Source: Paludisphaera mucosa (lineage in GTDB: Bacteria > Planctomycetota > Planctomycetia > Isosphaerales > Isosphaeraceae). From it: DNA of 64,000 nucleotides. The notes beneath the pieces are model-generated. The model saw only the letters and a list, made by a program, of their open reading frames with translations. It made no database searches and was not told the origin of the DNA. The stretch spans positions 1,044,808-1,108,807 of the forward strand of contig NZ_JARRAG010000001.1 of NCBI RefSeq assembly GCF_029589435.1, read 5' to 3'. Numbering within the stretch: position 1 is the first letter of the stretch; each line of letters begins with the position of its first letter. Shown in pieces: positions 48,501 through 63,482 of this stretch. The position numbers were made by a program, and so were the translations under genes.

Positions 48501-50532
48501 CCAGAGCGGCAACATCTCCAACAACCTGCTGCCCAACGCCCAGGACTCGTTCGTGGTCGACACCGGGACGGCGACCACCGCCGGCACCCCGCTGGCGGTC
48601 ACGATCGACAGCCCGGCGTCCGGCTCGGTGATCTCGAACCCGACGTCCAGCTTCGGGTTCCAGCTCTCGACCAACAAGAACCTCGACCTGACGCACCTGA
48701 CGACGTCGCAGATCCAGCTCGTGAGGGCCGGCGCCGACGGCACGTTCGCCAGCGGCACGACGATCACGATCGACCCGGCGAGCATCCAGGTGCTCTTCCT
48801 CGACTCGACGGCCCAGGGCGGCGGCGGCGGCAAGGGCCGCGAGCGGGTCACCTTCAAGCCGTCCGTCGTGCTGGGGAACGGCCTGTATCAGCTGACGGTC
48901 TTGGGGACGGGCGCCAACGGCATCCGCGACATCGCCGGCAACCTGCCGGGGGCCGACCTCACCGTCACCTTCGCGGTGTTCAGCCCGTCGACCGCCCACT
49001 TGGTCTTCGTCGGCGCCAACTTCGCCACCGACACCACGCAGACGCTCGGGTCGCGGGCGAATCCGTACGCCACCATCACCGACGCGGTCAACGCCGCCGG
49101 CTTCGGCGACAAGGTCGCGGTCCTGCCCGGCATCTACGCCGAGACGGTGGTGATGCGGAACCAGATCAGCGTCGTCTCGGCCGGCGCCGGCAGCACCGAC
49201 ACCGCCCTGTCGGCGGGGAACGCCCTGTCGACGATCATCCGGCCGATCTCGGCCGCCACCGCGGCGAGCGTCGTCGCCACCGGGCTGACGGCCTTCTTCG
49301 ACCCCACCACCGGGGCGGCCCTGCAGACGGAGCTGGCCGGCTTCACCATCGCCTCGTCGCTCATCGGCGACCCGGCCCTGGGGGCGACCAACGCCAACTC
49401 GGTCGGCCTGTCGCTGGTCAACTCGACGATGCTGGTCGACCGCAACTACTTCATCAACTCGGGCGTGGGCGTCTCGGCCGCCACGTCGTCCTCGGGGTAC
49501 GGCACCTCGTCGTTCGTGAACAACGGCTTCATCGGCAACATCATCGGCGCCTACGTCAACGACGCCGGCGGCACGCCGACGAACGCCACCTCGTACTGGG
49601 TGAACAACACGTTCGCCTACAACACCTACGGGTTCTGGGCTCAGAACTCCGGCTCGACCGGGTCCAACCAGGCCTACCTCGCCAACAACATCTTCTGGCA
49701 GAACCACGACCAGACGGCCAGCCGGACCGGGCTGGGGATCTTCTCGGCGACCCCGAGCCACCTGATCCTCAACAACAACATGTTCTCGGGCAACGGCCTC
49801 AGCGACACGCTCCCCTGGTGGGCCGCGTACAACGTCGGCAACGGCTTCGACCTGACCAAGCTCGGGCCCAACGCCACGAACGCCCAGGCCAACCTCGGCA
49901 ACTTCACCGGGTTCCCGTCGTTCGTCTCGCCGATCGACCCCCGGCCCGGCTCGGACGGACCGGCGGCCTTCTACCTGAGCGCCAACTTCGGCCTCCAGGC
50001 GAACTCGGCGGCCATCAACAACGCCCTGGCCTCGATCGCGTCGCAGACCGACTTCGTGGGGAACTTCCAGAACGTCAACCCCACGACCCGCGGCCTCAAG
50101 CTCCCGGGCTTCGGCCCCCGCGACGTCGGCGCCTTCGAGTACGTCCCCACCGGGACGACCACCACGACGACCACCACGACCTCCCCCACCGTCGCCCCCG
50201 CGACGACGTCCGACACCACGACCGACCCGTCGATCGGGGTGACCGGAGGGTCGACCACGACCACCACGACGACCGTCACGCCGACGATCACCGACCCGGC
50301 TCCGACGCCGGCTCCCGCACCGGCCCCGGCCCCGGCTCCTGCACCCGCCCCGGCTCCGGCTCCGGCCCCGACCTCGCCCACGAAGGTCACCGTCAACAAG
50401 CAGGCCGCGGCCCGCGCCGCCGCCGCGGCCCGGATGGCCGCACAGCGAGCCGCCCGTGCGGCCGCCCACGCCCCCGCCGGGAGGACGGCCACGGTCAAGC
50501 GGACTCCGCCCCGCTTCGCCGGCAACCGCTGA
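39568..50532 (+). CDS. giant secreted subtilase/sedolisin-like and beta-helix surface protein
   Basis: This 3654-residue protein is the largest in the window. The N-terminus has a basic stretch and LEFLEGRVLLA (residues 30-40), a motif typical of planctomycete exported proteins. Residues about 80-610 form a subtilase-like domain: Asp204 in GVLSDSFN, D236-E237-G-R-A-M where classical subtilases have the His-Gly motif, Asn318 in SAAGNS, and Ser579 in FGTSSAAP. A beta-sandwich insert lies at about 340-450. The acidic D-E pair recalls the Ser-Glu-Asp chemistry of sedolisins. Ig-like SbsA/Big_5-type modules follow (about 640-900), then more beta-rich repeats. A long parallel beta-helix comes next (about 1570-2560), ending in DIGAYEF; a second, shorter one ends in DVGAFEYV. 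The C-terminus has a Thr-rich run, a Pro-Ala repeat and an Arg/Ala-rich basic tail. ATG 39568 is chosen because GGGGGAG lies about 8 bases upstream. Confidence 0.85.
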   Translation: MGSFKAGGSDKGPDRRRGRHHAKRQGSPRLEFLEGRVLLATDALLGGNPVWHATSADIGDIQDGPMAPLGGQLITLYQKQQSGVSDSNALAAAFPLLQIKNGSVLISLTTWGDFDTFRTTVTNLGMQVTSSSPLYGMVNGWMPINQLYTTAQIPSLVAGSPELKPFVHYQGIANNQAQTALLADAASTRFNVTGAGTTVGVLSDSFNALGGYATDVSTGDLPGNVNILQDLAGEADEGRAMAQNIYDIAPGASLQFATAFIDQLSFANNIRALAAAGSDIIVDDVGYSTEPFFQDGVISQAVNAVTAQNIPYFSAAGNSQDSGYLSSFRGAQGTVGSIGAGRFMNFNPGSGAAVFQLPITTTTANSTLIFQFDQPYATQQPAGSTNTVTSQLNFYVLDANGAIVNPAGQGVDDNTATQAPIQGVVIANPGTYTIAIQVVKGADPGHVQFVAGGNQTIVVSQQFGSAGGTYYPTTFGHSSTINTIGVGAVPWWATAPYLNQQPLASEPFSSFGPTIIARDVNGNLLSSPTTVLNPVISAPDGGNTTFFGQIFQTNNPPFPGQPATTTNLSQNLPSFFGTSSAAPNAAAVAALMLQKAPNSTVAEIKAALISSTQSLNGAGQGNWNAQGGYGMINAVAAVSAVDVLTVAATTPANSTVVTTTPSYIEVVFSKPVLVSSLSAGDIQFITTPAGVTVSVGAPIPVDDPNTPTVVRFPYTFTFNSGVTATANGVYTYVVTGPVTSTDGKQLEQSGLISFLLQDVTAPTVAATSTLGRQVSVQFSKPMNPATITKNNIIVARRNGAGAWNAPGVVNLSLDPRVTINYNAANNTATLDFSALPQTALPSDQYAIIVISGPGGVTDAVGNQLDGNFNGSFPSGDGVAGGNFLQDLGFLLVQAPVITSFALDPASTNDTGIAGDSDTRATQPQFIGQVFNTFPGTVANLNYYVQFNSLNGGNFDLSVGAGGRGVAGNPNFQGVTDANGAFRFTAPTILPEGFQRARVVVVGQADQPPLPGAASQLDRAFRVDLTSPTITGAAQLDQSPFPFYVSDLPGLSLYVIDPSQQAAAYLATPNNVVFPALDPSTAVNLSNYQLQVVMANGTVLDVSQFITRANYVPLPPTFDASGNFIGTYQGRVDLTLAPGLPAGLYRLRAFSQGTVDGVSHSGLLDAAGNPLLNSGDSTPSYSLVFQLQRSPAYITNMVMTDTANQFNYNALGGPGSYYDLNGVRAQVPPTSWMFDFSNPLPLNDANGLAIDYSNLIRLVRSADAVGSPADGNFGDLGQDGLADSGTGFTRVGGTLVALYWQNPANGTWVMADASHPHGTRLVMVDPAGLTTADYYRTYIPNQIDAAGEDTRIFDIYGNQLDGEFLGNPTSTVSNQFHPFTSDPTKIFPGDRAIYNYEDLLTTGYPTPAPVSRMTGDGVGGGAFMAGFVVATTDHILYTRPDYQEDPFDPSTTPDGSLARPYATIAPEGDPNTSPANPFRNPNGGLNASSNFLSGFNPNYDRNGNGRFDRSVLYAAQQLAYTGPVVAVAIPGTPQRNPITGVVTQQPFVLQAPAGPNSYNDASTSVPFNTTLVFTPGTTLKALNASLFVQNQGSALQIQGNSITSQQVNFTSYNDASIGGATNGNPNTSPRAGDWGGIVFRNYNQRAFTRASDVLFPVDGTLLGVGTTTTSAALPALAGADELMSRLNFGNVRYGGGAVPRSSGTTYSGITLYNTRPVVSNFRVTDTGTSGGTQGAIGADMDSFLSDDVAARGPVIRRVTVQNNSLNGIWLLSQSNGFIEPTDATRLADSNDAVEPAHYSLFQPLPIVILAQLIVGQQYAVNTGGSTRWVANRLYIDSGSMLRFGTNSSLSVLNPEAGLNVGSRDYISKFDLDNNYSPESANFQALRADDPQVLFTSLFDNLATTTLVPTPINVTGNASPVSLGPALWGSVGIQSGAQAVINAATFRYGGGAVNTADITLPTQSVLSFITRQTTFENTPFEFGAGTRVYVTNNNFFNNFDAAMQVEPDGLLAGDPLRPLLSGHPFLRGNVMQGNGIDGLAVLATRAYLTNASSNFAVIGPIEVNDPAGTFTSGNQFVDSLWDLTDITYVLRGTIILSGFSRPLPAASYTTPPPPNISLTIQAALPNTLLADGTRIASPGASVVVKLLSENSTQGSGSLAGAGSTGGGATTNGGAGFIAGVDDNVDPTGGNNPDAGVWSQIRILGVPGNQSTGQKRVPVIITSLRDTTVGTTARGVANNTILNSYPVGPFTPYANQSLTTPAAGDGGYIYIGANSATTFDLNDPRQGSLIDNADIRYMRRIEIQGGGMVDAPSDITAFPFRDFKTGYEGPSTQLNARMAVRISDTHIDSFSDAGVFVHNSAGNAIQRDGTRFGFPGQGVTLYMYNSTISNTPVGIQANSQTGNNDGGQSPQMLILLNNTFYNDATAVSTAAETFNGQNSNSQVYVMAMNNIFANSSNAALSLTGNMWGTNLQSNLFFGNGQNVVLTNNAGFSGNISPKFGDPKFVDPANLNFALQAGSAAIDSGRSEIGPNPAGNAIYPTVTQPASGQFYGPRTDPATLTGTQLPGASGTFGGNSFASDPRQILTLPGSGIFSFNDLWIPSLTAAPGATDGPSYVDGSFHYIPLRGQFLGRRDFAGFIRADDPTTPDAGTGSDPFTDIGAYEFVDLHPPAVTAVTAIYAGAAGVFTTRNFYSVGGTAGSNQTPDYVQFSFSSPIDPNTVNADTIRLQALGVTGNNVPGTFISLAGLLTYDVEGRFARVSLGASGISLKSDAYRFVLVGDGANVLANPQGIALDGENLSNNNNPQTGVQQPLPSGNGFPGGDFFSSFIINTVPSTIVTGSFGLAAASDSNVVGDSVTNVTNPTFVGQIANTNTALVPLGGQTAIIDIGVVSMTGNGDVTTYWDTASAPANLAAFVRPNAGTALTNATGAFAVTVGQDQAGTGFVPTTAGLLSSPYNVGSSGNLIPIPGTVGGYYIARVRIVDQSGNISNNLLPNAQDSFVVDTGTATTAGTPLAVTIDSPASGSVISNPTSSFGFQLSTNKNLDLTHLTTSQIQLVRAGADGTFASGTTITIDPASIQVLFLDSTAQGGGGGKGRERVTFKPSVVLGNGLYQLTVLGTGANGIRDIAGNLPGADLTVTFAVFSPSTAHLVFVGANFATDTTQTLGSRANPYATITDAVNAAGFGDKVAVLPGIYAETVVMRNQISVVSAGAGSTDTALSAGNALSTIIRPISAATAASVVATGLTAFFDPTTGAALQTELAGFTIASSLIGDPALGATNANSVGLSLVNSTMLVDRNYFINSGVGVSAATSSSGYGTSSFVNNGFIGNIIGAYVNDAGGTPTNATSYWVNNTFAYNTYGFWAQNSGSTGSNQAYLANNIFWQNHDQTASRTGLGIFSATPSHLILNNNMFSGNGLSDTLPWWAAYNVGNGFDLTKLGPNATNAQANLGNFTGFPSFVSPIDPRPGSDGPAAFYLSANFGLQANSAAINNALASIASQTDFVGNFQNVNPTTRGLKLPGFGPRDVGAFEYVPTGTTTTTTTTTSPTVAPATTSDTTTDPSIGVTGGSTTTTTTTVTPTITDPAPTPAPAPAPAPAPAPAPAPAPAPTSPTKVTVNKQAAARAAAAARMAAQRAARAAAHAPAGRTATVKRTPPRFAGNR
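50293..50374 (+). repeat. Pro-Ala coding repeat
   Basis: A tandem run of CCG/GCT/CCC/GCC codons encodes about a dozen Pro-Ala pairs near the end of the giant surface protein. The codons vary, so the repeat is held at protein level more than at DNA level. It likely forms an extended rod or wall-spanning spacer. Confidence 0.75.
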
Positions 50533-51967: not shown

Positions 51968-53428
51968 TCAAGGAGTCCAGCGAAGGACGGGCGTCTTGGC
52001 GGCCTTGACTTCGTCAAGCCGGCTGACCGGCGTGGAGACGGGGGCGTCGTGCAGCGACTCGGGGTCTTCCAGGGCGATCGCCTTGAGCGCGGCGGCGAAG
52101 GCTTCGAGCGTGTCGCGGCTCTCGGTCTCGGTCGGCTCGATCATCAGGGCTTCCGAGACGATGAGCGGGAAGTACACCGTCGGCGCGTGGAAGTTGTAGT
52201 CGATGAGCCGCTTGCCGACGTCCATCGCGCGGATGCCGCGATCCTTGGCGAGCGACCGGCAGGACGCGACGAACTCGTGCATGCAGCGCGTCCCGCAGGG
52301 CACCGGGTAGACGTCGCGGACGAGGCCGAGCAGGTAGTTGGCGTTGAGGACCGCGTGCTGTGCGACCCGCTTGAGGCCGTCGGGACCCTGGCTGCGGATG
52401 TAGCAGTAGGCCCGGAAGAGCACGCCGGTGTTGCCGAAGAACGCCCGCACCCGGCCGATCGACTTGGGGCGGTCCTCGTCGAGGAAATAGGTGCCGTCGT
52501 CCTTGCGACCGACGATCGGAGCGGGCAGATACGGGGCGAGCTTACTGCGGACGGCGATGGGGCCAGCGCCGGGGCCGCCGCCGCCGTGGGGGCCCGAGAA
52601 CGTCTTGTGCGGGTTGTAGTGCATCAGGTCGACGCCCATGTCGCCGGGCCGGACGACGCCGAGGATGGCGTTCATGTTGGCCCCGTCGAGGTAGAGCAGC
52701 GCCCCGCGTTCGTGCAGCAGCTTGGCGATCTCGCCGATCTGGGGGTCGAAGAGCCCGACCGTGTTCGGGTTCGTGATCATGAACACGGCGACGTCGTCGG
52801 AGAGCTTCGACTTGAAGTCCTCCAGGTCGACGAGGCCCCGGCCGTCGCTCTTGACGGTGACGGTCTCGAAGCCCGCGAGATGGGCCGAGGCCGGGTTGGT
52901 GCCGTGGGCGCTGTCGGGGATGAGGACCTGGGTCCGTTTCCGGCCCGGCTCCTGGTCGCGGAAATAGGCGGCGGCCACGAACAGCGCGGCCAGCTCGCCC
53001 TGCGCGCCGGCGGCGGGTTGGAGGCTCACGGCGTCGAGCCCGGCGACCTCGGCCAGGTCGTCCTGGAGCCCGTAGAGGATGGCGAGCAGGCCCTGGAGCG
53101 TCGAGTCGTCCTGGTAGGGATGCTGGGCGCCGAGCCCCGGCAGGCCGGCCAGACGCTCGTTGCGCTTGGGGTTGTACTTCATCGTGCACGAGCCGAGCGG
53201 GTAGAAATTCCCGTCGATCGACATGTTGAGCGCCGAGAGGTTCGTGTAATGGCGCACGACGTCGAGCTCGCTCAGCTCGGGCAGGGGGGGGGCCGACTTC
53301 TGGAGGTGGGCGGGCGGGATGAGGTCGTCGAGCGAGGCGGCCGGGACGTCGGAGGTGGGGAGGACCGCGGTGAACCGTCCGGGACGGCTCGATTCGAAGA
53401 GCAGGGGCTGCAGGTCGAGCTTGTACAT
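51968..53428 (-). CDS. gcvPB: glycine dehydrogenase (decarboxylating) subunit 2
   Basis: This 486-residue protein is the C-terminal-type half of the P protein of the glycine cleavage system, which decarboxylates glycine with pyridoxal phosphate and passes aminomethyl to the H protein. The PLP Lys is in HYNPHKTFSGPHGGGGPG, and IPDSAHGTNPASA and ITNPNTVGLFD are typical cofactor-site blocks. Also seen is the N-terminal LGSCTMKYNP motif. It pairs with the separate subunit 1 encoded just upstream (51 bases). The two-subunit form is common in bacteria outside the Enterobacteria. The ATG has no strong Shine-Dalgarno. Confidence 0.95.
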   Translation of the reverse strand: MYKLDLQPLLFESSRPGRFTAVLPTSDVPAASLDDLIPPAHLQKSAPPLPELSELDVVRHYTNLSALNMSIDGNFYPLGSCTMKYNPKRNERLAGLPGLGAQHPYQDDSTLQGLLAILYGLQDDLAEVAGLDAVSLQPAAGAQGELAALFVAAAYFRDQEPGRKRTQVLIPDSAHGTNPASAHLAGFETVTVKSDGRGLVDLEDFKSKLSDDVAVFMITNPNTVGLFDPQIGEIAKLLHERGALLYLDGANMNAILGVVRPGDMGVDLMHYNPHKTFSGPHGGGGPGAGPIAVRSKLAPYLPAPIVGRKDDGTYFLDEDRPKSIGRVRAFFGNTGVLFRAYCYIRSQGPDGLKRVAQHAVLNANYLLGLVRDVYPVPCGTRCMHEFVASCRSLAKDRGIRAMDVGKRLIDYNFHAPTVYFPLIVSEALMIEPTETESRDTLEAFAAALKAIALEDPESLHDAPVSTPVSRLDEVKAAKTPVLRWTP

Positions 53429-53479
53429 GATCGCCGTGGGAATGAGGTTCGAAGTGGGGCCAGGTCCGCGGTCGCGATC

Positions 53480-54832
53480 TCAGAGGGAGGAGAGGGCGTT
53501 GCGATAGGCCTCGGCCAGGCCGTCGATCTCGTCCTTGGTGCGCTTCTCGGTCACGGCCACGAGGATGTGGTCGGCCAGGTCGGGATACCACCGGCCCAGC
53601 CGGACGCCGCCGTGATAGCCGGCCTCGCCGACCTTCCTCAGCACGGCCTCCGGATCCTTGGAGCAGCGGACGACGAACTCCTTGAAGAAGGGCCCCGGGA
53701 ACGCCAGGGAGAGGCCGTCGACCTTCGCCAGGGCCTCGGCGGCGTAGTGGGCCTTCCGCGTGCTCAGCTCGGCGGCGTCGCGGAGGCCGCGGGGTCCCAT
53801 CGCGGCCAGGTAGATGCTCGACCGCAGCGCCAGCAGGCCCTGGTTCGTGCAGATGTTGGACGTGGCCTTCTCGCGCCGGATGTGCTGCTCGCGGGTCTGG
53901 AGCGTGAGCACCCAGCAGCGCTTGCCGTTGCGGTCGGTGGTCTGGCCCACGATCCGGCCCGGCAGCTTGCGGAGATACTCCTGCTTGCAGGCGAGGATCC
54001 CCAGGTAGGGCCCGCCGAACGTCATCGGGTTCCCCAGGCCCTGGCCCTCGGCGACCACGACGTCGGCCCCGTAGGCGTCGGGGCGGCGCAGCAGGCCGAG
54101 CGAGATCGGGTCGACGCTGACGATCGCCGTCGCGCCGTGCGCGTGGGCGGCCTCGACGAGCGCCTCGACGTCTTCCAGCCGGCCGAAGAAGTTCGGGTAC
54201 TGGATCACCACCGCCGCCGTCTCGGGGGTGATCGCCGCGGCGAACGCCCTGGGATCGACGCCCCCGCCGACGGCCGGCACGGTGACGACCTGGGGGTCGA
54301 GGTGTTCGAGATAGGTCTGGAGGATGCGGCGGTATTCGGGATGGACGGAGCCCGCGACGACGACCGGGCCGGTCCGGCGGTTCGTCGCCAACGCCATCAT
54401 CACGGCCTCGGTGACGGCGGATCCGCCGTCGTAGAGGCTCGCGTTCGAGACGTCCATGCCCGTCAGCTGGGTGATGAGCGTCTGGTACTCGAAGGTCGCC
54501 TGGAGCGTGCCCTGGCTGGCCTCGGGCTGATACGGCGTGTAAGCCGTGTAGAACTCGCCGCGCGACGACAGGTTGTCGACGACGGCCGGGATGAAGTGGT
54601 CGTAGCTGCCCGCCCCGAGGAAGCAGACGCGACGGTCGGCCCCCTGGTTGCGGCCGAGCAGGGCCCCGACCTCGCGGGTCAGTTCGAGCTCGGTGAGTGC
54701 GGGAGGGATGCAGAGAGGACGCTTGAGCCGATACTCGGCCGGGACCATGTCGAAGAGTTCATCGAGCGAGTCGAGCCCGATGGCGTCCAGCATCACGCGG
54801 ACGTCCTCGGGCGTATTAGCGATATAAGCCAT
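53480..54832 (-). CDS. gcvPA: glycine dehydrogenase (decarboxylating) subunit 1
   Basis: This 450-residue protein is the N-terminal-type half of the glycine cleavage P protein. Family features are the start MAYIANTPEDVRVMLDAIG, FLGAGSYDHFIPAVV, the TAYTPYQPEASQGTLQ segment, MDVSNASLYDGGSA and TSNICTNQGLLAL. It forms a heterotetramer with subunit 2. GGGAG is 4-5 bases before the ATG. It follows gcvH by 57 bases. Confidence 0.95.
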   Translation of the reverse strand: MAYIANTPEDVRVMLDAIGLDSLDELFDMVPAEYRLKRPLCIPPALTELELTREVGALLGRNQGADRRVCFLGAGSYDHFIPAVVDNLSSRGEFYTAYTPYQPEASQGTLQATFEYQTLITQLTGMDVSNASLYDGGSAVTEAVMMALATNRRTGPVVVAGSVHPEYRRILQTYLEHLDPQVVTVPAVGGGVDPRAFAAAITPETAAVVIQYPNFFGRLEDVEALVEAAHAHGATAIVSVDPISLGLLRRPDAYGADVVVAEGQGLGNPMTFGGPYLGILACKQEYLRKLPGRIVGQTTDRNGKRCWVLTLQTREQHIRREKATSNICTNQGLLALRSSIYLAAMGPRGLRDAAELSTRKAHYAAEALAKVDGLSLAFPGPFFKEFVVRCSKDPEAVLRKVGEAGYHGGVRLGRWYPDLADHILVAVTEKRTKDEIDGLAEAYRNALSSL

Positions 54833-54889
54833 GTTGCTCCCAGATTGAATAACGCGTCGCGACCTTCTCGTTTCCCCGGCCGGTCGCGA

Positions 54890-55276
54890 TCAATGCTCGT
54901 CTTCGGCGATCTTGATCTCGTAGGCGGAGTGGTCGAGCAGCTTGCCGGCCTCGGCCGGGTCGTCGACCTTGATCTTGACGAGCCATCCCTTGACGTAGGG
55001 ATCCTCCGAGAGGACCTGGACGTCGTCGAGGAGGGCCTGGTTGACCTCGACGACCTCGCCGCTGATCGGGGCGTACAGGTCGTTGACCGACTTGACGCTC
55101 TCGACCTCGCCGAAGCTCTTGCCGGCGGTGAGCCGGGCGCCCACCTTGGGCAACTCGATCGTGAGCAGGTCGGTGAGCTGGTCGACGGCGAATTTCGACA
55201 GGCCCACGACGGCGGTGTCGCCCTCGACGTCCACCCATTCGTGGGTCGGGCTGTAGCGGAACTTCTTGGGGTCCAT
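54890..55276 (-). CDS. gcvH: glycine cleavage system H protein
   Basis: The 128-residue lipoyl carrier shuttles the aminomethyl group between the P and T proteins. The lipoylation site is Lys62 in EVESVKSVNDLYAP. THEWV near the N-terminus and the PISGEVVEVN block are standard. AAGGA lies 9 bases before the ATG. The position between gcvT and gcvPA is the common T-H-P order. Confidence 0.95.
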   Translation of the reverse strand: MDPKKFRYSPTHEWVDVEGDTAVVGLSKFAVDQLTDLLTIELPKVGARLTAGKSFGEVESVKSVNDLYAPISGEVVEVNQALLDDVQVLSEDPYVKGWLVKIKVDDPAEAGKLLDHSAYEIKIAEDEH

Positions 55277-55349
55277 GTGTCCGGGTCCTTGATCCTACGA
55301 GGGAACGCACGCGAGCGAACGTCGGCGAGGCGGCGGGAGACGCGCCCGG

Positions 55350-56453
55350 TCAGGGCTTGGGCCGTTTGTAGAAGGGCAGGGGAACGACCTCGGCCGGCTC
55401 GGGCTTGCCGCGGACGTCGACGACGACCTTGGTCCCCGGGGCCGAGGATCCGGGGTCGATCAGGGCCATCGCCAGGCTGGCCTGCAACGTCGGCGCGAAG
55501 GTGCCCGAGGTCACGGAGCCCAGCGTTCGGTCGTCGGCCGTCACCATCGAGCCCTGGCGGGCGATCCGCTTGCCGTCGAGCTTGAGCCCGACCCGGGTCG
55601 ATCCCGGGCTCTGCTTGTGCTGCTTGAGCGCGTCGGAGCCGACGAAGTCCCCCTTGTCGATCTTGACCGCCCAGCCGACGCCGGCCGCGAACGGGTTGAT
55701 CGTGTCGGAGAGCTCGTGGCCGTAGAGCGGCATCGCCGCTTCGAAGCGGAGGGTGTCCCGCGCCCCCAGGCCGATCGGAGCGACGCCGAAACCGGACCCC
55801 GATTCCATCAGAGCGATCCAGACCCGCGACGCGCTGGGGCCCGGGACGATCAGCTCGAAGCCGTCCTCGCCCGTGTAGCCGGTCCGGCTGACCAGGGCCT
55901 CGACCTCGCCCATCAGCTTTCCCGTCGCGACGTGGTAGTACTTCAGGCCGTCGAGCGGCCTGTCGACGAGCGGCTGGAGCGTCGCCGCGGCCGCCGGGCC
56001 CTGCACGGCGATCATGGCCGTCTCGACGGTCTTGTCCGTGAGCGTGGCCTTGAAGCCCTCCTGATGCTCGCCGAACTGGGCGACGACCCGGTCGCGGTTG
56101 GAGGCGTTGCAGACGACGTAGTACGACTTGTCGAGGCGGTAGACGAGGATGTCGTCGATCAGGCCGCCGAGGTCGTTGGCGAGCAGGCTGTACTGGATGC
56201 GGCCGGGTTCCAGCTTGGTCGCGTCGTTGGTCGCGACGAGGTTGATCCAGGACAGGGCCTTGGGGCCGTCGAAGGCGAGCCGGCCCATGTGGCTCACGTC
56301 GAACAGGCCGACGCCGCTGCGGACCGCCTGATGCTCCTCGACGATGCTCGTGTACTGGACGGGCATCGACCAGCCCGCGAAGTCCACCATCCGGCCGCCG
56401 TTGGTCTGGTGCCAGTCGAACAGGGGCGTGTGCAACGGGGTCGGGTCGGTCAT
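55350..56453 (-). CDS. gcvT: aminomethyltransferase (glycine cleavage T protein)
   Basis: From ATG 56453 the protein has 367 residues, the usual GcvT length. It transfers the C1 unit from the aminomethylated H protein to tetrahydrofolate. Motifs are MVDFAGWSMPVQY, the catalytic Asp in GLFDVSHMG, ILVYRLDKSYYVVCNASNRD, SRTGYTGEDGFEL for folate binding and GLGARDTLRFEAAMPLYGHE. ATG 56453 is preferred because GGAG lies 8 bases upstream. ATG 56486 would add 11 residues and also lies downstream of the predicted promoter; the frame extends to 56537, which would be upstream of the transcription start. This is the first gene of a gcvT-gcvH-gcvPA-gcvPB-GspF series. Confidence 0.94.
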   Translation of the reverse strand: MTDPTPLHTPLFDWHQTNGGRMVDFAGWSMPVQYTSIVEEHQAVRSGVGLFDVSHMGRLAFDGPKALSWINLVATNDATKLEPGRIQYSLLANDLGGLIDDILVYRLDKSYYVVCNASNRDRVVAQFGEHQEGFKATLTDKTVETAMIAVQGPAAAATLQPLVDRPLDGLKYYHVATGKLMGEVEALVSRTGYTGEDGFELIVPGPSASRVWIALMESGSGFGVAPIGLGARDTLRFEAAMPLYGHELSDTINPFAAGVGWAVKIDKGDFVGSDALKQHKQSPGSTRVGLKLDGKRIARQGSMVTADDRTLGSVTSGTFAPTLQASLAMALIDPGSSAPGTKVVVDVRGKPEPAEVVPLPFYKRPKP

Positions 56454-56508
56454 CAACGACGCTCCGAGCGTATCCGTAAGGCTCATGACTTCACCACAGG
56501 AACCGTGG

Positions 56509-56537
56509 ATTGTATCCGCCGCGCCTCGGGAGGACAA
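56509..56537 (-). promoter_or_regulatory. promoter of the gcv operon
   Basis: On the minus strand TTGTCC (56537-56532), 17 bases and TACAAT (56514-56509) form a good sigma-70-type promoter. Transcription should start near 56502, about 50 bases before the preferred gcvT start. The -10 lies within a small palindrome (GGAT-TGT-ATCC). The leader is too short for a glycine riboswitch. Confidence 0.55.
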
Positions 56538-56579: not shown

Positions 56580-59500
56580 TCATCGTCTCCGCGCGTGCAG
56601 GCGGTCGTGGATGCGGGCCAGGAGGGCGGCGTCGAAGGGCCGGTAAGGCCGGAACTTCTCGATCCGATTGTGCTCTTCGCTGTAGGCGAGCGCGCGATTG
56701 GCCCCGAGCTTGGCGGCGGCGGGATTGTCGAGGAGGTGGCCGGAGTCGGTGGGGCTCATCTGGAAGAGGATTCTCATCCCGAACTCGCGGAGCTGCTGGA
56801 GCGAGACGCAGCGATTGAGGTTGTTCACGGTGTCGCACCAGGCGATCAGGTGCACCCCGAAGCCGGGCCCTTCGCGGAGGATCTGGTCGATCAGGTCGGC
56901 CGGCGTCTGCTCCTCGCGCTCGCCGAAGTGGAAATCGTCCTCGCGGCGACGGAGGTCGCGGAACCGGGGGAAGTCGTGGATGAAGAGGAACAGCTCGGGG
57001 CCGTCGCCAGCGTCAGGCTCGCGTCGGCGCCTCAGCTCGTCGGCGACCTCGGCCGCGAACGCCGAGGCCTCGCGCCAGCCGCCGACCTTGACGCCGTGAG
57101 GCAGCGCATCGGCCGTTTTCCGCAGGGTTTCGGCGTGCTCGGAATCCTCGGGCGTGCCGTCGAGCAGCCAGAACCGGGCGCCCTCGCGCGTGCCGTCGTC
57201 GCGGGCCGGCGGATACTGGACCGCGAGGCTCGCCAGCGCCGAGGCGGCGACGCCGATCGCGGCCTCCTCGTTCTGGCCGACGATGAGCAGGTGGTTCCCC
57301 CCCTGGCGGCGGAAGAGGGCCGAGGTCGGCTCCTTGATCGCGACCGGGTCGCCGAGCCAGGCCTGCGCCGAGCGCGGGGATTCGGGCCAGGCGTCGGCTT
57401 CCAGCCGCGCGACGAACAGGGGGTTGCCGGCGAAATCGGCCTGGGCGTCGCCCTCGAAGACGATCGGCGTGCGCGCCGACGCGGGGGGCCGGCGGTCGAG
57501 AAGCTCGTGGATCTTATCGAGATATTCCTCCCTCCGCTCCTCGCCCAGCCAGACGACCTGGAAGACGTGGTTGCCCTCGGGCGAGCCGTTGGCGTCGTTG
57601 TAGATCGCCTCGCCGGGGCGCGAGAGGGCCTTCGCCGCCGGGTTGTTCTCCGCGAGGATCAGGTGCGAGTCGATGTCGCTGCACTGGAGCGCGATGCGCA
57701 CGGCCATCTGGCCGAGGGTGCTGCGGGCGAGGGTGAACGCGCCCCCCAGGCTCTGCGAGCCCAGGATGATGTGGATGCCGAACGCGCGACCCTGGCGGAC
57801 CAGCCGGTCGAGCAGGCCGGCGGCCTCCTGGGCCAGCTTGTCCTCCTCGACGAAGAACTCCTGAAACTCGTCGACGACCAGCAGGATGCGGGGCAGGGGG
57901 GGCGTCCCGGGCGCGTTGCGGAAGCCCTGGACGTCCTGCACGCCGGCGGCCCGAAACCGGTCGGCGCGGATCTTCAGCTCGGCGTCGAGCCGGCTCAGCA
58001 CGCTCACGCCGAACTCGCGCTCGCTCTCGATGGCCACGACGCTCGCGTGCGGCAGCCCGTGCGCCGCATAGACCTTGAACTCGACGCCCTTCTTGAAGTC
58101 GATCAGGTACAGGTCGATCTCGTCGGGGCTGTACGCCAGCGACAGGTTGACGATCAGGGCGTGCATCAAGGTCGACTTGCCCGAGCCCGTCCGGCCGGCG
58201 ATCAGGACGTGCTGCGACGTCCCCTTGCCGAGCGCCAGGTGTTGGCGCTTGGAGGCGGCGGCCTTCCCCAGCGGGACGTCGAGGCCGGCGCGACTGTCGC
58301 ACGTCCACCACGACTCGGGGGCGGGGGCGATGAACTCGAACGGAACCTCGACCCGCTTCGCCGCGCGGGCGGCCTCGCCGATCCGCTGGATCAGCCGCGT
58401 GGCCGTCTCGCCGACCGGAGGCGCGTCGGCCGTGAAGGGATAGCCGCCCAACTCGGGGTCGTCCCAGGCCAGCGAGTCGCCCTTCCAGATGAGCCGTGTG
58501 CAATAGGGGCGAAGGTCGGCGAGCCGGCAGCCGGTAGGGAACTCGCGGCCCTCGTCGACCGCGATCAACGTCAGGACGCCGCAGGGGGGACCGCCGGCGA
58601 CGATCGACGCCAGCCGCGAGGCGGCCTTCTCGTCGAACTTGGTCGGGTAGTCGACGACCACGAGCACGCGGTAGGGCTCGGCGACCTCGCCGGCCGCGGC
58701 GTTGTAGGCCTCGATCGACGGGTACTCGTTCCGCAGGTATTTCTGCGTCACGAGTTCCATGTGGGCTTCCAGCTCGGCCAGCCGCTCCTCGATCTGACGC
58801 GCGTCGGTCCAGACCTGGTTGTTGACCAGGGCCTCGTCGAAATCGGCCAGGTGCATGAAGGCGCCGAAGCCGCGTCCCAGGCCGATCGGGTCGACGATCG
58901 TGAAACGGACCATGCCCGGCGGCAGGCCGGCGAGGAGCCGGAGCATCGCCGCCTGGATCGCCGTCGACGCCGCGGCGCGGCCCTCGGCGGGGGTTTCGAC
59001 GAGCAGGTTGGCCGAGGCCGGGAAGGGCCGGAGCGCGGGCAGGCGGAGTGAATCGGGCAGGCCCTCTCGCAGCTCCGGCTCGCTCGGCAGCCCGCCCGGG
59101 AGCGACGCGAGGTCCACGGCCAGCGTCCCGAAACGGAGCGCCGGGGGGATCGCCCTCGGCAAGGGCCGATCCGACCAGTCTGGGGAGGCCCATTCCAGCC
59201 CGAAGCCTTCGGCCCGGCGGGAGACGTCGTCAAGCAGGCCGCAGGCGGTGGCCGCGGTCTCTCGCCAGCGCGAGGCCATCGCCCGACGGTCGCTCTCGTA
59301 GACGGCGCGGGCCTGCTCCTGGAGGGCCTTGTAACCTTCCTCGAGTTTGACCATCCCCGACTCGCCCTTCGTCCGGAGATCGGCGATCTTGCGCCTGTGG
59401 GTATCCTCGGCTTCCTTCGAGCGCCGCTCCTGCTCCTCGCGGTTCTCGCGTAGCTTCCGCCCATAGACCTCGTTGATTTGGCGGAGCCGCTCGTCGCGGT

Positions 59501-60563
59501 CGTCCTCGCCCTGGGCGATCGTCCGGGTGTGGGTCTCTTTCGCCTGCTCCAGGTCCTTCTCGCGGCGGGCGACGAGGGCTTTGAGCGACTCCTGGAAACG
59601 GCCGTCGATCTGGGTCTTGCAGTAGTCGCCCAGCGCGCCGTCGTCGGACGCCGACTGCATCAAGGGCTTGTAGAGCCGTTCCAACTGCTCCTTGGCGAGC
59701 GATACCAGCTTCATGCGCAGCGCGAGCCCGAGCGCGAGGCCGACGCCGGCTAAAACCCCCGTGGAGGTGGCGTCGAATCCGAGGGCGATCCCGACGAATC
59801 CGAACACAAAGGTCGTCGAGATGTAGACCCAGGCCTCGTTCATCCCCTTCAGGGACCGAGGGATGATCAGGAGTTCCAGAAGCTTGAGCGGCGGCCCCAT
59901 CCGCGAGAGCCGCTCGAACAGCTCGTCGCCCGGCTCGGCGAATTTGGAGTAGGATTCGCGCGAGGGGGTCGGCGGCTCCGGGTCGAGCCCGAATTTGCGG
60001 TAATCGGCGGCGAGCGCGGCCAGGCGTCTGCGGTACGATTCCAAAATCTCCAGCGCGTCCTGGATCGGCTTGTTGGCGACCGCGTGTTCCTTGACGGCGA
60101 CCTTCTGGCCCGAGTCGTGACCGCCCATCGCATCAGACTTGTCGCGGGCCAGTTTGGACTTGGCCGACTGGCGGAGCGCGTCGAACTCGGCGGCGATGCG
60201 GCGGCTGCCCATCGCGAAATCGTTCTTGGCCTGGGCCTCGGCCGAGGAGGCCGCTTCGGCGAGATCGCGGCGCCGTTTCTCGTCGGCGGCGATCGCCTCG
60301 CGATCGAGTTGCGCGACGCGCTGGGCCAGGGCGGCCTTCTTGGCCCGGTAGTCCTGTTCGGCCTCCTGCTCCTTGGATCGCCTCGCCCGCTTGATGGACG
60401 CCTCGACCTCGGCGCGCTCGGCGACGGCGGCGACGAGGGCCTTGAGCGCGTCGCGTTGCACCCGGAGCGGATCGGGCTCGATGCTCGATCCGGCCGGCTT
60501 CGCCTCCGGCTCGGCGGCGAGGGCGGGGGCGCCGGGGAGGCTCGGCGAGGTCGAGGGGCTCAC
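56580..60563 (-). CDS. EssC/EccC-like FtsK/SpoIIIE membrane ATPase with long coiled coils
   Basis: This 1327-residue protein has, in order: a charged coiled coil (about 30-200), two closely spaced transmembrane segments (about 245-290), a second coiled coil (about 295-430), and the FtsK/SpoIIIE-type ATPase region. The main ATPase has Walker A GRTGSGKST (790-798, Lys796) and Walker B LLVVDE (Asp898-Glu899), with VRIALQCSDIDSHLIL, as in translocation motors of type VII secretion. A third module (about 1085-1320) has a degenerate P-loop (VGQNEEAAIG, no GKS) but keeps LFLFIHDF, resembling the inactive C-terminal ATPase domains of EssC/EccC. Unlike EssC there is no FHA domain. It starts with GTG; GGGAG is 9 bases upstream, and the start overlaps the preceding stop (GTGA). 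It is the last gene of the operon. The cargo is unknown. Confidence 0.85.
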   Translation of the reverse strand: MSPSTSPSLPGAPALAAEPEAKPAGSSIEPDPLRVQRDALKALVAAVAERAEVEASIKRARRSKEQEAEQDYRAKKAALAQRVAQLDREAIAADEKRRRDLAEAASSAEAQAKNDFAMGSRRIAAEFDALRQSAKSKLARDKSDAMGGHDSGQKVAVKEHAVANKPIQDALEILESYRRRLAALAADYRKFGLDPEPPTPSRESYSKFAEPGDELFERLSRMGPPLKLLELLIIPRSLKGMNEAWVYISTTFVFGFVGIALGFDATSTGVLAGVGLALGLALRMKLVSLAKEQLERLYKPLMQSASDDGALGDYCKTQIDGRFQESLKALVARREKDLEQAKETHTRTIAQGEDDRDERLRQINEVYGRKLRENREEQERRSKEAEDTHRRKIADLRTKGESGMVKLEEGYKALQEQARAVYESDRRAMASRWRETAATACGLLDDVSRRAEGFGLEWASPDWSDRPLPRAIPPALRFGTLAVDLASLPGGLPSEPELREGLPDSLRLPALRPFPASANLLVETPAEGRAAASTAIQAAMLRLLAGLPPGMVRFTIVDPIGLGRGFGAFMHLADFDEALVNNQVWTDARQIEERLAELEAHMELVTQKYLRNEYPSIEAYNAAAGEVAEPYRVLVVVDYPTKFDEKAASRLASIVAGGPPCGVLTLIAVDEGREFPTGCRLADLRPYCTRLIWKGDSLAWDDPELGGYPFTADAPPVGETATRLIQRIGEAARAAKRVEVPFEFIAPAPESWWTCDSRAGLDVPLGKAAASKRQHLALGKGTSQHVLIAGRTGSGKSTLMHALIVNLSLAYSPDEIDLYLIDFKKGVEFKVYAAHGLPHASVVAIESEREFGVSVLSRLDAELKIRADRFRAAGVQDVQGFRNAPGTPPLPRILLVVDEFQEFFVEEDKLAQEAAGLLDRLVRQGRAFGIHIILGSQSLGGAFTLARSTLGQMAVRIALQCSDIDSHLILAENNPAAKALSRPGEAIYNDANGSPEGNHVFQVVWLGEERREEYLDKIHELLDRRPPASARTPIVFEGDAQADFAGNPLFVARLEADAWPESPRSAQAWLGDPVAIKEPTSALFRRQGGNHLLIVGQNEEAAIGVAASALASLAVQYPPARDDGTREGARFWLLDGTPEDSEHAETLRKTADALPHGVKVGGWREASAFAAEVADELRRRREPDAGDGPELFLFIHDFPRFRDLRRREDDFHFGEREEQTPADLIDQILREGPGFGVHLIAWCDTVNNLNRCVSLQQLREFGMRILFQMSPTDSGHLLDNPAAAKLGANRALAYSEEHNRIEKFRPYRPFDAALLARIHDRLHARRR

Positions 60564-60799
60564 GAATATTCACTCCCATCGGAGCAGTCGCGGCGGACCT
60601 GGTCGAGGACGTCTGCGAGCTTCTGGAGGCCGATGACCGCGGAGTCGACCGCCGGAGTCAGCGGGGCGAGGTGCCGTTCTTCGAAGCTGCGACGGACGGA
60701 GTCGCCCCAGGTGGCCTCGGTCAGGAGCCAGTGGTCGTTGAGGATCCGGATCGTCTGCTTCAGCCGCGTCGATCCGGCGAGGACTTTCGCGTTCGCCAC
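60560..60799 (-). CDS. 79-residue helical WXG100-like small protein
   Basis: I do not recognise a named family for this 79-residue protein. It is predicted to be two helices: a first amphipathic one (LKQTIRILNDHWLLTEATW), then a Trp-Gly-Asp turn (WGDSVRRSFEERHL) and a second helix (PAVDSAVIGLQKLADVLDQV) ending in RRDC. The size, the helix-W-G-helix layout and the place next to an EssC-like ATPase recall WXG100 substrates, although the classical W-x-G is W-G-D here. It starts with GTG one base after the upstream stop (TGACGTG), with GAGGAGG 9 bases before it inside the upstream gene. Its stop overlaps the ATPase start. These couplings make it a real gene. Confidence 0.75.
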   Translation of the reverse strand: MANAKVLAGSTRLKQTIRILNDHWLLTEATWGDSVRRSFEERHLAPLTPAVDSAVIGLQKLADVLDQVRRDCSDGSEYS

Positions 60800-60800
60800 G

Positions 60801-61433
60801 TCAGGGGGCCTCCTCGGGGGCTGGAGAAACGGCCGGAAAGGCGACGTCGGGCTCGTCGCGCCCCAGGATCTCGGCGGCGACGGCCTCCATCGCCGGGGTC
60901 GCGCGAGCCATGCTCGATGCGGCCCCGGCGCCGTCCAGCCCGCCTGCCGGGGCCGTGACGTCCAGATAGGCTTCGAGCGCCTCGACGATCCGCGTCAGGA
61001 GGCCGATGGCGCGGGGGACGTCGGAGGCCGCCAGGTCTTTGAGGCGCTGGACGCTGCCGTGGTACTCCATGGCGGCCTGCTGCAGCGCGGGCTGCCATTT
61101 CCGGACGAGCGTCAGCCGTCGCTCGGCGTCCTGGAGGCTCGCCTCGGCCTGCCGCAGGCGTTCCTTGGGCTCCGACAGCGAGGGGTGATGCTCGGGGGTC
61201 TTCTGGAGCTTCAGCTTGAAGAGGTCGGCGCGGGCGGACGCCACCCGCTCGCGACGCCGCTTGATCTGCTCCTGCCAGTAGAAAGGCCGGTCCTGCTGGA
61301 GCCACTGGACCGTGCGGCGGAGTTCGGCGTCGGCCGCGCCCAGGGCCGCGAGCGCGTCCTCGCCGTAGAGGGCGAGGGCGACGCGGAAATCCCGCAGGGC
61401 CTCGACGGAATGGACTTCGGCCTGGCTGCTCAT
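60801..61433 (-). CDS. coiled-coil helical protein of the EssC-like operon
   Basis: This protein of about 210 residues has no family I can name. It is almost entirely helical: VHSVEALRDFRVALALYGEDAL at the start, then a long charged coiled coil (about 40-150) rich in Arg, Glu, Leu and Gln, and a Pro/Ala-rich tail. The N-terminal helix with a following long helical hairpin is the general design of LXG/WXG-type secreted or adaptor proteins, but there is no signature motif. It is the first gene of the three-gene operon, and the ribosome binding site of the next gene lies inside its 3' end. ATG 61433 is preferred on length; ATG 61454 (seven residues longer) is possible. Neither has a strong Shine-Dalgarno. 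Confidence 0.7.
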   Translation of the reverse strand: MSSQAEVHSVEALRDFRVALALYGEDALAALGAADAELRRTVQWLQQDRPFYWQEQIKRRRERVASARADLFKLKLQKTPEHHPSLSEPKERLRQAEASLQDAERRLTLVRKWQPALQQAAMEYHGSVQRLKDLAASDVPRAIGLLTRIVEALEAYLDVTAPAGGLDGAGAASSMARATPAMEAVAAEILGRDEPDVAFPAVSPAPEEAP

Positions 61434-61513
61434 GGCGGAACTCGCACGATCCATCGCCCGATTGCCCGCGAGGCGGTCGAGTCCGAACCGGATTCGCCGA
61501 CGGGACGTCCCTC

Positions 61514-61519: not shown

Positions 61520-61589
61520 AGCGATCCCCGGCCGATTGGGGATGTCCCACCCGGGCGAAACGGCGGCGGCCCGCCGCGTCGGCGACGCC

Positions 61590-61618
61590 TTGAGGCTTCG
61601 GGGTCGATCGGCTACGGT
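61590..61618 (+). promoter_or_regulatory. candidate promoter of the MutS-like gene
   Basis: TTGAGG (61590-61595), 17 bases and TACGGT (61613-61618) lie 35 bases before the ATG. TTGAGG with a 17-base spacer is also used in the candidate promoter at 12913-12941. Confidence 0.35.
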
Positions 61619-61652
61619 TGGACCTTCGACCGACCCCCCACCCGCCGCGACG

Positions 61653-63482
61653 ATGGCCATCATGACCGCACCTCGAGCCGCCGCACCCCCCCCGCCCGAT
61701 CTGCACGCCGAGTACTCGCGCCGGCTGGCGCTCCACGAGCACGCTCGGAAGCGATGGGACCAGGTCGACGCCCGTCTCGCCGACCTGCGTCTGGTCGTGT
61801 TCGTGCTCGCGGCGGCGCTCGCCGGCTACACCTACGCATATGGTCAGCCGTCCTGGTGGTGGCTCTCCGTCCCCGCGGGGGCTTTCGTCGGCCTGCTGCT
61901 CGCCCACGAGCCGATCCATCGCCGCGCGGTCCGCTCCGTGCGGACGATCGAGTTCTACAAGCGGGGCCTCGCACGGATGGAGGATCGCTGGGCGGGGACG
62001 GGAGTGGCCGGTTCGAACTTCCTCAACCTCGATCATCCCTATGCCGCCGACCTCGACCTCTTCGGCTCCGGCTCCCTCTTCGAGCGCCTGTGTACGGCCC
62101 GCACGAAGGCGGGGGAGGAGGCGTTGGCTTCATGGCTGCTCGCTCCCTCGACGCCTGACGTCCTCTCGCGCCGACACGCGGCGGTCGTCGAGCTTCGCCC
62201 CCGGCTCGACCTCCGCGAGGATCTCGAATTGCTCGGCGCCGACGTCCGGGCCGGGATCGACCCGGCTGCGCTCGCTTCGTGGGGGACGACGCCCCGCGTC
62301 TTCCCGAATCGACCGATCCGGATCGTCGCGGCGCTCCTGGCGACCTTCGGCGCTTCGGCGCTCGCGTATCTGATCTACAAGCAAGATCCGCCAGCGAGTC
62401 TTCTCTTCGTCCTCATGCTGCTCATCGAGGGCGTCTTCGCGCTCTGGCTCGCGAAACGCGTCGACCGCGTCCTGGCCGGGGTCGACGAGCGCGCCCACGA
62501 CTTGACGCTGCTCTCGGGGCTGCTCGACCGCCTGGAGCGCGAGCCGCTGGACGCCCCGTTGCTGCGGTCGCTCCGCGAGGCGCTGGTGACGGGGGGCAGC
62601 CCGGCCTCGCGGCGGATCCGATCGCTGGGGAATCTGCTCCACCTGCTGGACAGTCGCGACAACCAGTTCTTCATGCCGTTCGCCCTGGTCCTGCTCTGGA
62701 AGACGCAGCTGGCGATGAAGATCGACGCCTGGCGAGCGGCGAACGGGCCGCAGGTCGCGGGCTGGCTCGCGGCGACGGGCGACTTCGAGGCCCTGTCGGC
62801 CCTCGCCGCCTATGCTGCCGAGAACCCCTCCGACGTCTTCCCCGAGATCGTCCCCGGCCCGGCCCTGTTCGACGCGGCAGGGTTGGGGCACCCGCTCATC
62901 GCCCGCGCCGAGTGCGTGACGAACGACGTGACGCTCGGCCTTGAGACGACCGCCCTGGTCGTGAGCGGATCGAACATGTCGGGCAAGAGCACGCTGCTGC
63001 GCGCGATCGGAGTGGCGACGGTCATGAGCCTGGCGGGAGGCCCGGTCCGGGCGTCGCGTCTACGGCTCTCGCCGCTGGCCGTCGGCGCGACCCTGCGCGT
63101 GCAGGACTCGCTCCAGGCCGGCCGCTCGCGGTTCTACGCCGAGATCACCCGCGTGCGGCAGATCGTCGACGTCTCGTGCGGGCGGCTGCCGCTCCTCTTC
63201 CTGCTCGACGAGCTGTTCAGCGGCACCAACTCCCACGACCGCCGCGTCGGGGCCGAGGCGGTGATCCGCGGCCTGCTCGACCGCCATGCGATCGGCCTCG
63301 TCACCACCCACGACCTGGCCCTGGCCGAGATCGTCGCCGGCCTGGGGCCGCGGACGCTCAACGTGCACTTCGAGGACCACTTCGAGGACGGCGTCATGCG
63401 GTTCGACTACCGCATCCACCCCGGCGTCGTGCAGCACTCGAACGCCCTGGCGCTCATGCGCGCGGTCGGGCTGGACGTCTGA
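61653..63482 (+). CDS. membrane-anchored MutS-like ATPase
   Basis: This 609-residue protein ends in a MutS-type ABC ATPase domain. Walker A is VVSGSNMSGKSTLLRAI (Lys445), the Q-loop-like VQDSLQAGRSRFYAEI follows, Walker B and signature are LLFLLDELFSGTNSHDR, and the H-loop is GLVTTHDLALAE. It lacks the MutS mismatch-recognition domain. Instead it has a pair of hydrophobic segments at about 43-80 and another pair at about 220-265. Related membrane-linked MutS-type proteins are widespread in Bacteroidetes and planctomycetes, without a known role; repair of mismatches is unlikely. ATG 61653 is chosen; ATG 61662 is possible. Neither has a strong ribosome binding site. It is divergent from the EssC-like operon, with a 219-base shared region. 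Confidence 0.85.
   Translation: MAIMTAPRAAAPPPPDLHAEYSRRLALHEHARKRWDQVDARLADLRLVVFVLAAALAGYTYAYGQPSWWWLSVPAGAFVGLLLAHEPIHRRAVRSVRTIEFYKRGLARMEDRWAGTGVAGSNFLNLDHPYAADLDLFGSGSLFERLCTARTKAGEEALASWLLAPSTPDVLSRRHAAVVELRPRLDLREDLELLGADVRAGIDPAALASWGTTPRVFPNRPIRIVAALLATFGASALAYLIYKQDPPASLLFVLMLLIEGVFALWLAKRVDRVLAGVDERAHDLTLLSGLLDRLEREPLDAPLLRSLREALVTGGSPASRRIRSLGNLLHLLDSRDNQFFMPFALVLLWKTQLAMKIDAWRAANGPQVAGWLAATGDFEALSALAAYAAENPSDVFPEIVPGPALFDAAGLGHPLIARAECVTNDVTLGLETTALVVSGSNMSGKSTLLRAIGVATVMSLAGGPVRASRLRLSPLAVGATLRVQDSLQAGRSRFYAEITRVRQIVDVSCGRLPLLFLLDELFSGTNSHDRRVGAEAVIRGLLDRHAIGLVTTHDLALAEIVAGLGPRTLNVHFEDHFEDGVMRFDYRIHPGVVQHSNALALMRAVGLDV

Follow-up and report, generated by a model that had tools for sequence, protein, structure and literature searches.

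Four genes for small helical proteins and an FtsK-family ATPase: a candidate type VII-like export module in Planctomycetota

Introduction

Do bacteria with a Gram-negative-type envelope possess protein-export machines of the type VII kind? Type VII secretion is usually presented as a system of Gram-positive bacteria and mycobacteria, and the question is raised here by three genes in a stretch of 64,000 nucleotides from Paludisphaera mucosa (contig NZ_JARRAG010000001.1, positions 1,044,808 to 1,108,807), which as a whole we call the window. The three genes lie on the minus strand and encode a helical protein of 217 amino acids (aa), termed CC217, a 79-aa hairpin, termed WGD79, and a membrane ATPase of the FtsK family. 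On balance we favour the reading that they encode a type VII-like protein-export module, belonging to a lineage sister to EccC/EssC that occurs in Planctomycetota and some other phyla. What the data support directly are the gene order, the co-occurrence of the genes, the predicted folds of two small proteins, the phylogeny of the ATPase and its one intact active site.

According to a 2023 review (PMC10765036), WXG100 proteins are found almost only in Actinomycetota, Bacillota and Chloroflexota, and the few Gram-negative ones encoded beside FtsK are functionally unconfirmed. A 2024 survey (PMC11217815) reported the subtypes a to j of the type VII secretion system (T7SS) only from Actinomycetota and Bacillota, and a survey of secretion systems in diderm bacteria with lipopolysaccharide left out ESX as absent there (PMC4793230). 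Our literature search, which did not extend to subscription papers, returned no title or abstract describing a planctomycete type VII or WXG100 system.

A conserved operon and its fourth gene

The three genes, defined by open reading frames (ORFs) and their translations, are the following.

60801..61454, minus strand: CC217 gene, 217 aa
60560..60799, minus strand: WGD79 gene, 79 aa, GTG start
56580..60563, minus strand: ATPase gene, 1327 aa, GTG start

An earlier reading of the window made from its letters (the sequence-only reading) had described a minus-strand trio joined by a one-base gap and a four-base overlap, and both the ORFs and the DNA letters bear this out. Read directly from the DNA, the CC217 and WGD79 genes meet at ...CCCTGA-C-GTGGCG..., with a 1-base gap, and the WGD79 and ATPase genes at ...ATTCGTGAGC..., with a 4-base overlap. 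The ratio of nonsynonymous to synonymous substitution rates (dN/dS) was ~0.13-0.24 for all three genes against Paludisphaera soli and 0.25-0.42 against a second relative, values that indicate purifying selection on all three. Because of this low dN/dS and the kept gene order, we regard the trio as real genes rather than chance ORFs of a G+C-rich genome.

Using the ATPase as the query against 84,980 species genomes, we kept the best 80 loci, nearly all of them labelled Planctomycetota. Homologues of the small genes were sought by translated searches and iterated hidden Markov models (HMMs), and counts were made on the 62 loci whose upstream sequence reaches 2.6 kb or more. Both small genes precede the ATPase in 59/62 of these loci, so that the trio does consist of conserved neighbours across Planctomycetota. 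Two contigs labelled Nealsonbacteria and Bacteroidales place among planctomycetes in the ATPase tree and are probably mis-binned.

Clustering of the neighbouring ORFs brought out a further gene, encoding a 90-aa protein (WXG90), which is the first gene of most loci (47/62); the usual order is WXG90, CC217, WGD79, ATPase. The set of small helical proteins plus ATPase seen in the window is therefore conserved, but the full system has an additional true WXG100 protein that is absent in place here. The mean column identity of WXG90 is 70%, and all 22 scanned members match the Pfam family WXG100, the first of them with 32.8 bits against a cut-off of 27.3. The best matches of its profile in the PDB are Helicobacter pylori HP0062 (E=8e-11) and Bacillus anthracis EsxB, and the turn reads W-R-D in 49/49 sequences. 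No additional conserved gene emerged from the clustering across ~80 loci, and where the ATPase is separated from the small genes its neighbours share no further component.

An independent draw of genomes gave 30 WXG90 loci, with a CC217 homologue after WXG90 in 29/30 and a homologue of the 79-aa protein in 27/30. Among 392 genomes drawn across the phylum, 64 carry both WXG90 and the ATPase, one WXG90 only, two the ATPase only and 325 neither (Fisher p=4e-70, uncorrected for kinship). At least six genomes have WXG90 and the ATPase more than 100 kb apart on one contig, which argues that their link is more than shared location.

Small proteins of the operon

The AlphaFold2 (AF2) model of WGD79 has a mean predicted local distance difference test score (pLDDT) of 89.5, with helices at residues 2-28, 33-44 and 47-78 and W31 at the hairpin turn.

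60701..60709, minus strand: W31-G32-D33 turn motif of WGD79 (alignment of homologues)

W31 and D33 are invariant in 51/51 homologues. Of the two-helix protein with a Trp-Gly turn that had been proposed, the helical hairpin with Trp at its turn is thus retained in the model, whereas the conserved motif is W-x-D and not W-x-G. With Foldseek, the 21 best PDB matches of the model are all of the Esx/WXG100 type, HP0062 included, with E-values as weak as expected for a short helical protein. With VIA, the top 11 are all Esx-type hairpins, again including HP0062 (Z 8.7-9.6, rmsd 1.0-1.9 over 71-78 residues); helical hairpins reach Z 7-8 by chance, and the Esx rows still lead the list. The best sequence match of the WGD79 profile in the PDB is Staphylococcus aureus EsxA (E=0.009). 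The WXG100 family is not matched by the WGD79 of the window, for which the Pfam scan gave no family, and is matched weakly by 13/51 homologues (best E=1e-4). A direct profile comparison of WGD79 with WXG90 was weak (36%); nonetheless, the iterated WGD79 HMM recruits WXG90. WGD79 is accordingly predicted, from its model, to have the Esx/WXG100 hairpin fold.

CC217 was modelled as two antiparallel helices of ~70 residues followed by a flexible tail (AF2, pLDDT 87.1).

61206..61412, minus strand: first long helix of CC217, residues 15-83 (AF2 model)
60960..61175, minus strand: second long helix of CC217, residues 94-165 (AF2 model)

The family was assembled from 60 sequences; the Pro/Ala-rich tail is variable, and the gene is kept directly upstream of WGD79. 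Scans of the window's CC217 and WGD79 with Pfam, NCBIfam and PADLOC returned nothing useful, and no LXG match was found either in the Pfam scan of CC217 or in a search of the whole genome. Foldseek placed CC217 beside generic long hairpins only (CT398, HP0958; TM 0.44-0.49), and we claim no family for it. Four planctomycete homologues carry an Imm33-like C-terminal domain above the Pfam cut-off, which may be another sign of a toxin-immunity context; usually, planctomycete CC217 ends in a disordered tail alone, and the planctomycete operon has no toxin domain.

Domains and phylogeny of the ATPase

The following features were located in the ATPase gene.

59703..59831, minus strand: two predicted transmembrane helices, ~residues 245-263 and 269-287, preceded by a coiled coil at the N-terminus (hydropathy scan)
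58329..59201, minus strand: D0, strongly degenerate FtsK-like module, ~residues 455-745 (homologue alignment, no Walker A)
57504..58316, minus strand: D1, intact FtsK ATPase domain, residues 750-1020 (alignment, PDB match)
58170..58196, minus strand: Walker A GRTGSGKST, residues 790-798 (alignment of 82)
57867..57872, minus strand: Walker B acidic pair D898-E899 (invariant, 82/82)
56583..57491, minus strand: D2, degenerate FtsK domain, residues 1025-1327 (hhalign against D1)

The protein matches Pfam FtsK_SpoIIIE (PF01580, E=2e-32) and EccC in the PDB (4nh0, E=1.8e-34), and it stays below the cut-offs of the EccC/EssC models, with 109 bits against 509 for NCBIfam TIGR03924 (EccCa). D1 has a mean column identity of 78% in 40 homologues and matches 4nh0 with E=6e-43; its Walker A residues G790, T792, G793, S794, G795, K796 and S797 are invariant in 82/82 ATPases. 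D2 is homologous to D1 (hhalign probability 96.7%, E=4e-10) and shows no Walker A in any homologue of the alignment. D0 has the invariant motifs DP-x-G-x-G and HM..V.Q.YLR..Y..YN, gave no match when compared with D1, and only a marginal one with EccC (E=0.36). The protein ends after D2, and the further domain D3 of EccC has no counterpart. A membrane ATPase with one intact and one degenerate FtsK module had been proposed from the letters; the membrane helices and the intact module stand, but the modules number three, a degenerate D0, an intact D1 and a degenerate D2.

In a tree of D1, the planctomycete ATPases and their relatives from other phyla form a clade (support 100/99) sister to the EccC/EssC-like proteins and apart from FtsK; with many long branches, the branching order within the clade is uncertain. 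Matches to D0 were confined to this sister clade, and those of D2 elsewhere were marginal. By this phylogeny the ATPase is sister to EccC/EssC rather than inside it. The type VII-like machine that the sequence-only reading envisaged thus keeps the conserved trio, the Esx fold and a D1 closest to EccC/EssC, but its ATPase lies beside the EccC/EssC clade, not within it.

Relatives in other phyla

A search of plasmids with WXG90 gave only two matches, in Caballeronia sp. SBC2 and Helicobacter sp. NHP19-012, both adjoining ATPase homologues. On the Helicobacter plasmid the order is a WXG-like gene, a helical protein of 340 aa that ends in a WHH/colicin-DNase domain, an SMI1/KNR4 protein, a 77-aa protein and the ATPase; on the Caballeronia plasmid it is WXG100, proteins of 436 aa, 113 aa and 76 aa, and the ATPase. 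A Rhodococcus plasmid encodes the ATPase, a 314-aa protein (p314), a W-R-D protein of 73 aa and a WXG90-like one of 87 aa, and the N-terminus of p314 is CC217-like (hhalign 69.6%). The ATPases from these other phyla match the planctomycete ones across D0-D1-D2, with E-values of 1e-52 to 1e-108. The Caballeronia operon (L136:1-4316) runs on into genes for CARF (DUF1887), VWA, PP2C and a serine/threonine kinase. On plasmids of Deinococcus (L139) and Rhodococcus (L140) the ATPases, which show no convincing internal helix pair, adjoin small proteins (142 aa and 203 aa), each with one strong membrane helix at its C-terminus and perhaps serving as separate anchors.

HP0062 of H. pylori has been described as ESAT-6-like and as having a WRD motif, and its gene cluster includes one for an FtsK/SpoIIIE protein (PMC3397514), so that both the W-R-D turn of WXG90 and the FtsK-family gene recur there. 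The Helicobacter plasmid relative differs in its nuclease-bearing protein, its immunity-type gene and an ATPase without two convincing membrane helices, a comparison in which the H. pylori cluster is known to us by description.

The larger helical protein had been read as an adaptor. Its long helical hairpin is supported by the AF2 model, but since the same slot in other phyla holds a nuclease-bearing protein, a substrate or targeting domain seems likelier than an adaptor. Because the Helicobacter slot is filled by a helical protein with a nuclease domain, we consider that CC217 is probably an exported or targeting component rather than a mere adaptor.

Interpretation and alternative explanations

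In its complete version, the proposed module would be the four-gene operon of WXG90 with its W-R-D turn, CC217, WGD79 as a second Esx-type hairpin, and the membrane FtsK ATPase. The hairpins WXG90 and WGD79 would bind the long hairpin of CC217, much as Esx and Lap proteins bind LXG or PPE substrates, and this complex would dock on the ATPase. D1, as the sole ATPase-competent domain, would drive it through the inner membrane, D0 and D2 may recognise cargo or regulate, and CC217 would be the component that is exported or that targets. The window copy would share the single WXG90 made by a second operon of the genome. The physical complex, export, its direction and the sharing of WXG90 are what we infer.

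The features expected of an EccC/EssC-type protein, namely two predicted membrane helices, tandem modules and a D1 match to EccC, were found, and a WXG100 gene stands beside the ATPase in the complete operons, the window copy having one only elsewhere in the genome. With the T7SSa-T7SSj (PMC11217815, PMC10765036) the module has in common an FtsK-family ATPase with membrane helices, an adjoining WXG100-family gene, Esx-type partners and a helical substrate-like protein. It differs from them in its separate ATPase clade, in one active domain between two degenerate ones without D3, in W-x-D for W-x-G, and in having no YxxxD/E, no EssB/EccB and no linked EsaB. The T7SSb toxins of the LXG type with their Lap/Esx partners likewise combine a long helical domain with small WXG-like partner genes, and with toxin and immunity functions in some relatives; unlike them, CC217 has no Pfam LXG and the planctomycete members have no toxin domain.

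Several observations weigh against the export reading. W-x-G is absent from all WXG90 (49) and WGD79 (51) sequences, and the C-terminal YxxxD/E signal occurs in 0/49 and 0/51 of them, respectively. YukC/EssB, EccB and LXG were not found in the genome, the search not having extended to EccD, EccE, EsaA, EssA and mycosin. The genome's one YukD gene sits in an unrelated E1-E2 locus, megabases from the type VII-like operons. No membrane helix was predicted in the ATPases of Caballeronia and Deinococcus, and just one weak helix each in their Helicobacter and Rhodococcus counterparts. Finally, hhalign gave only weak homology of CC217 to the Rhodococcus p314 and detected none to the proteins in the toxin slot of Helicobacter and Caballeronia, so the equivalence of CC217 to toxin-bearing proteins rests mainly on position. 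Because several defining features that we looked for are lacking, we do not file the module under T7SSa-j; its parts list is T7SS-like, and membership is not assigned. YukD (C2:3605560, on another contig, C2) was considered as a part of the system and rejected, since it belongs to a YukD-E2-E1 locus; the YukD-like, E2-like and ThiF/E1-like genes at C2:3605527-3607882 (L123:9528-11883) make up a bacterial ubiquitin-like conjugation locus.

The most serious alternative, which we consider unlikely, is an intracellular toxin-immunity conflict device, in which the FtsK-family ATPase and WXG-like proteins check or deliver a toxin-bearing helical protein inside the cell, with no export. It would account for the relatives whose ATPases have no convincing membrane helices, for the plasmid location of the Helicobacter and Caballeronia copies, which are surrounded by genes of the nuclease or immunity type and by VWA, PP2C and kinase genes, and for the Imm33-like domains on some CC217 proteins. 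The PADLOC models SspH and mad8 also match D1, but they do so only over the generic FtsK core. Against such a device stand the two predicted membrane helices of the planctomycete ATPase, the toxin-free planctomycete operon, and the presence of the ATPase in all Isosphaeraceae genomes (45/45), unlike patchy defence genes.

An FtsK-like pump that moves DNA in conjugation or in the handling of chromosomes, aided by helical accessory proteins, is improbable. The domain is indeed FtsK/SpoIIIE, and in certain mycobacteria DNA transfer has been connected with ESX systems. However, the genome carries a separate canonical FtsK, the Pfam scan of our ATPase found no FtsK gamma domain, the one that reads FtsK-orienting polar sequences (KOPS), the D1 tree groups it with EccC/EssC against FtsK, and co-occurrence with a WXG100 gene is near-perfect. 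Compared with FtsK/SpoIIIE DNA translocases, which share the ATPase fold, it also has tandem degenerate modules and Esx-type partners.

Even less probable is a canonical T7SSa-j whose remaining parts have merely diverged: a WXG100 protein plus an FtsK ATPase with membrane helices would suit it, and some T7SS parts evolve fast, but the ATPase clade lies outside EccC/EssC with D0 and D2 modules undetected in the EccC rows tested, YukC and EccB were not found in the genome, and the ~80 loci hold no additional conserved gene.

The export module as we favour it may be part of something wider. Somewhat short of an even chance, in our judgement, is a whole second type VII-like branch, sister to EccC/EssC. 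Its hallmarks would be W-x-D hairpins and an ATPase of D0-D1-D2 build, and it would span Planctomycetota, Campylobacterota, Pseudomonadota, Deinococcota and part of the Actinomycetota. On plasmids its cargo would be of the toxin-immunity kind; in Isosphaeraceae it would belong to the chromosomal core and carry helical cargo free of toxins, with two ATPase operons sharing one WXG100. The conserved four-gene unit offers a defined gene set for asking whether type VII-like export exists in bacteria whose envelope is of the Gram-negative type, and the same set, whose ATPase is tied by phylogeny to the Helicobacter and Caballeronia operons, bears on the role of orphan HP0062-like proteins.

The window copy and the second operon

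The genome of the window has genes for two members of this ATPase family and a single one for WXG90. That sole WXG90 gene heads a complete four-gene operon on C2, and the window trio has none in place. The remark of the sequence-only reading that no other usual type VII genes are present is true of the window itself, but the genome does encode a WXG100 protein at another site. A second WXG100 match (C2:985808) falls on a coiled-coil stretch of an ORF of 509 aa with the look of an ExbB/MotA-type membrane protein, and we judged it a chance match.

A tree of 82 ATPases places the copy of the window in a clade of 21 members (support 100) nested among WXG90-bearing loci, and WXG90 is in place at 0/12 checkable loci of this clade. 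Of 45 Isosphaeraceae genomes, all have the ATPase and 41 have WXG90; in one otherwise complete genome (G329, 320 contigs) the ATPase is present and WXG90 was not found. Exactly one WXG90 occurs in 25/26 genomes with two ATPase matches, the exception being an assembly of 77% completeness that shows two partial frames, and two-operon Isosphaeraceae have two WGD79 genes per genome. Because of the clade, the one-WXG90 counts and the second complete operon, the window trio is best read as a conserved Isosphaeraceae duplicate that lost its WXG90 gene, and it probably uses the WXG90 of the second operon, or none. That it is instead a decaying duplicate of the four-gene operon without a function of its own, as the missing WXG90 and the complete copy on another contig might suggest, is the least probable alternative and largely refuted by conservation: the whole 21-ATPase clade is maintained with WXG90 in place nowhere checkable, the Walker motifs are intact, the three genes are under purifying selection, and each genome keeps two WGD79 genes.

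Neighbouring genes

Upstream of the trio, a divergent MutS-like ATPase gene lies directly adjacent (61536-63482 of the window). On the same strand as the trio, ~40 bases downstream of the ATPase gene, inspection of the translations identified the glycine cleavage genes gcvT, gcvH, gcvPA and gcvPB (51968-56537). Farther along, at 39400-50532, the window encodes a very large surface-type protein (3710 aa); its N-terminal part is subtilase-like, and its repeats resemble right-handed beta-helices.

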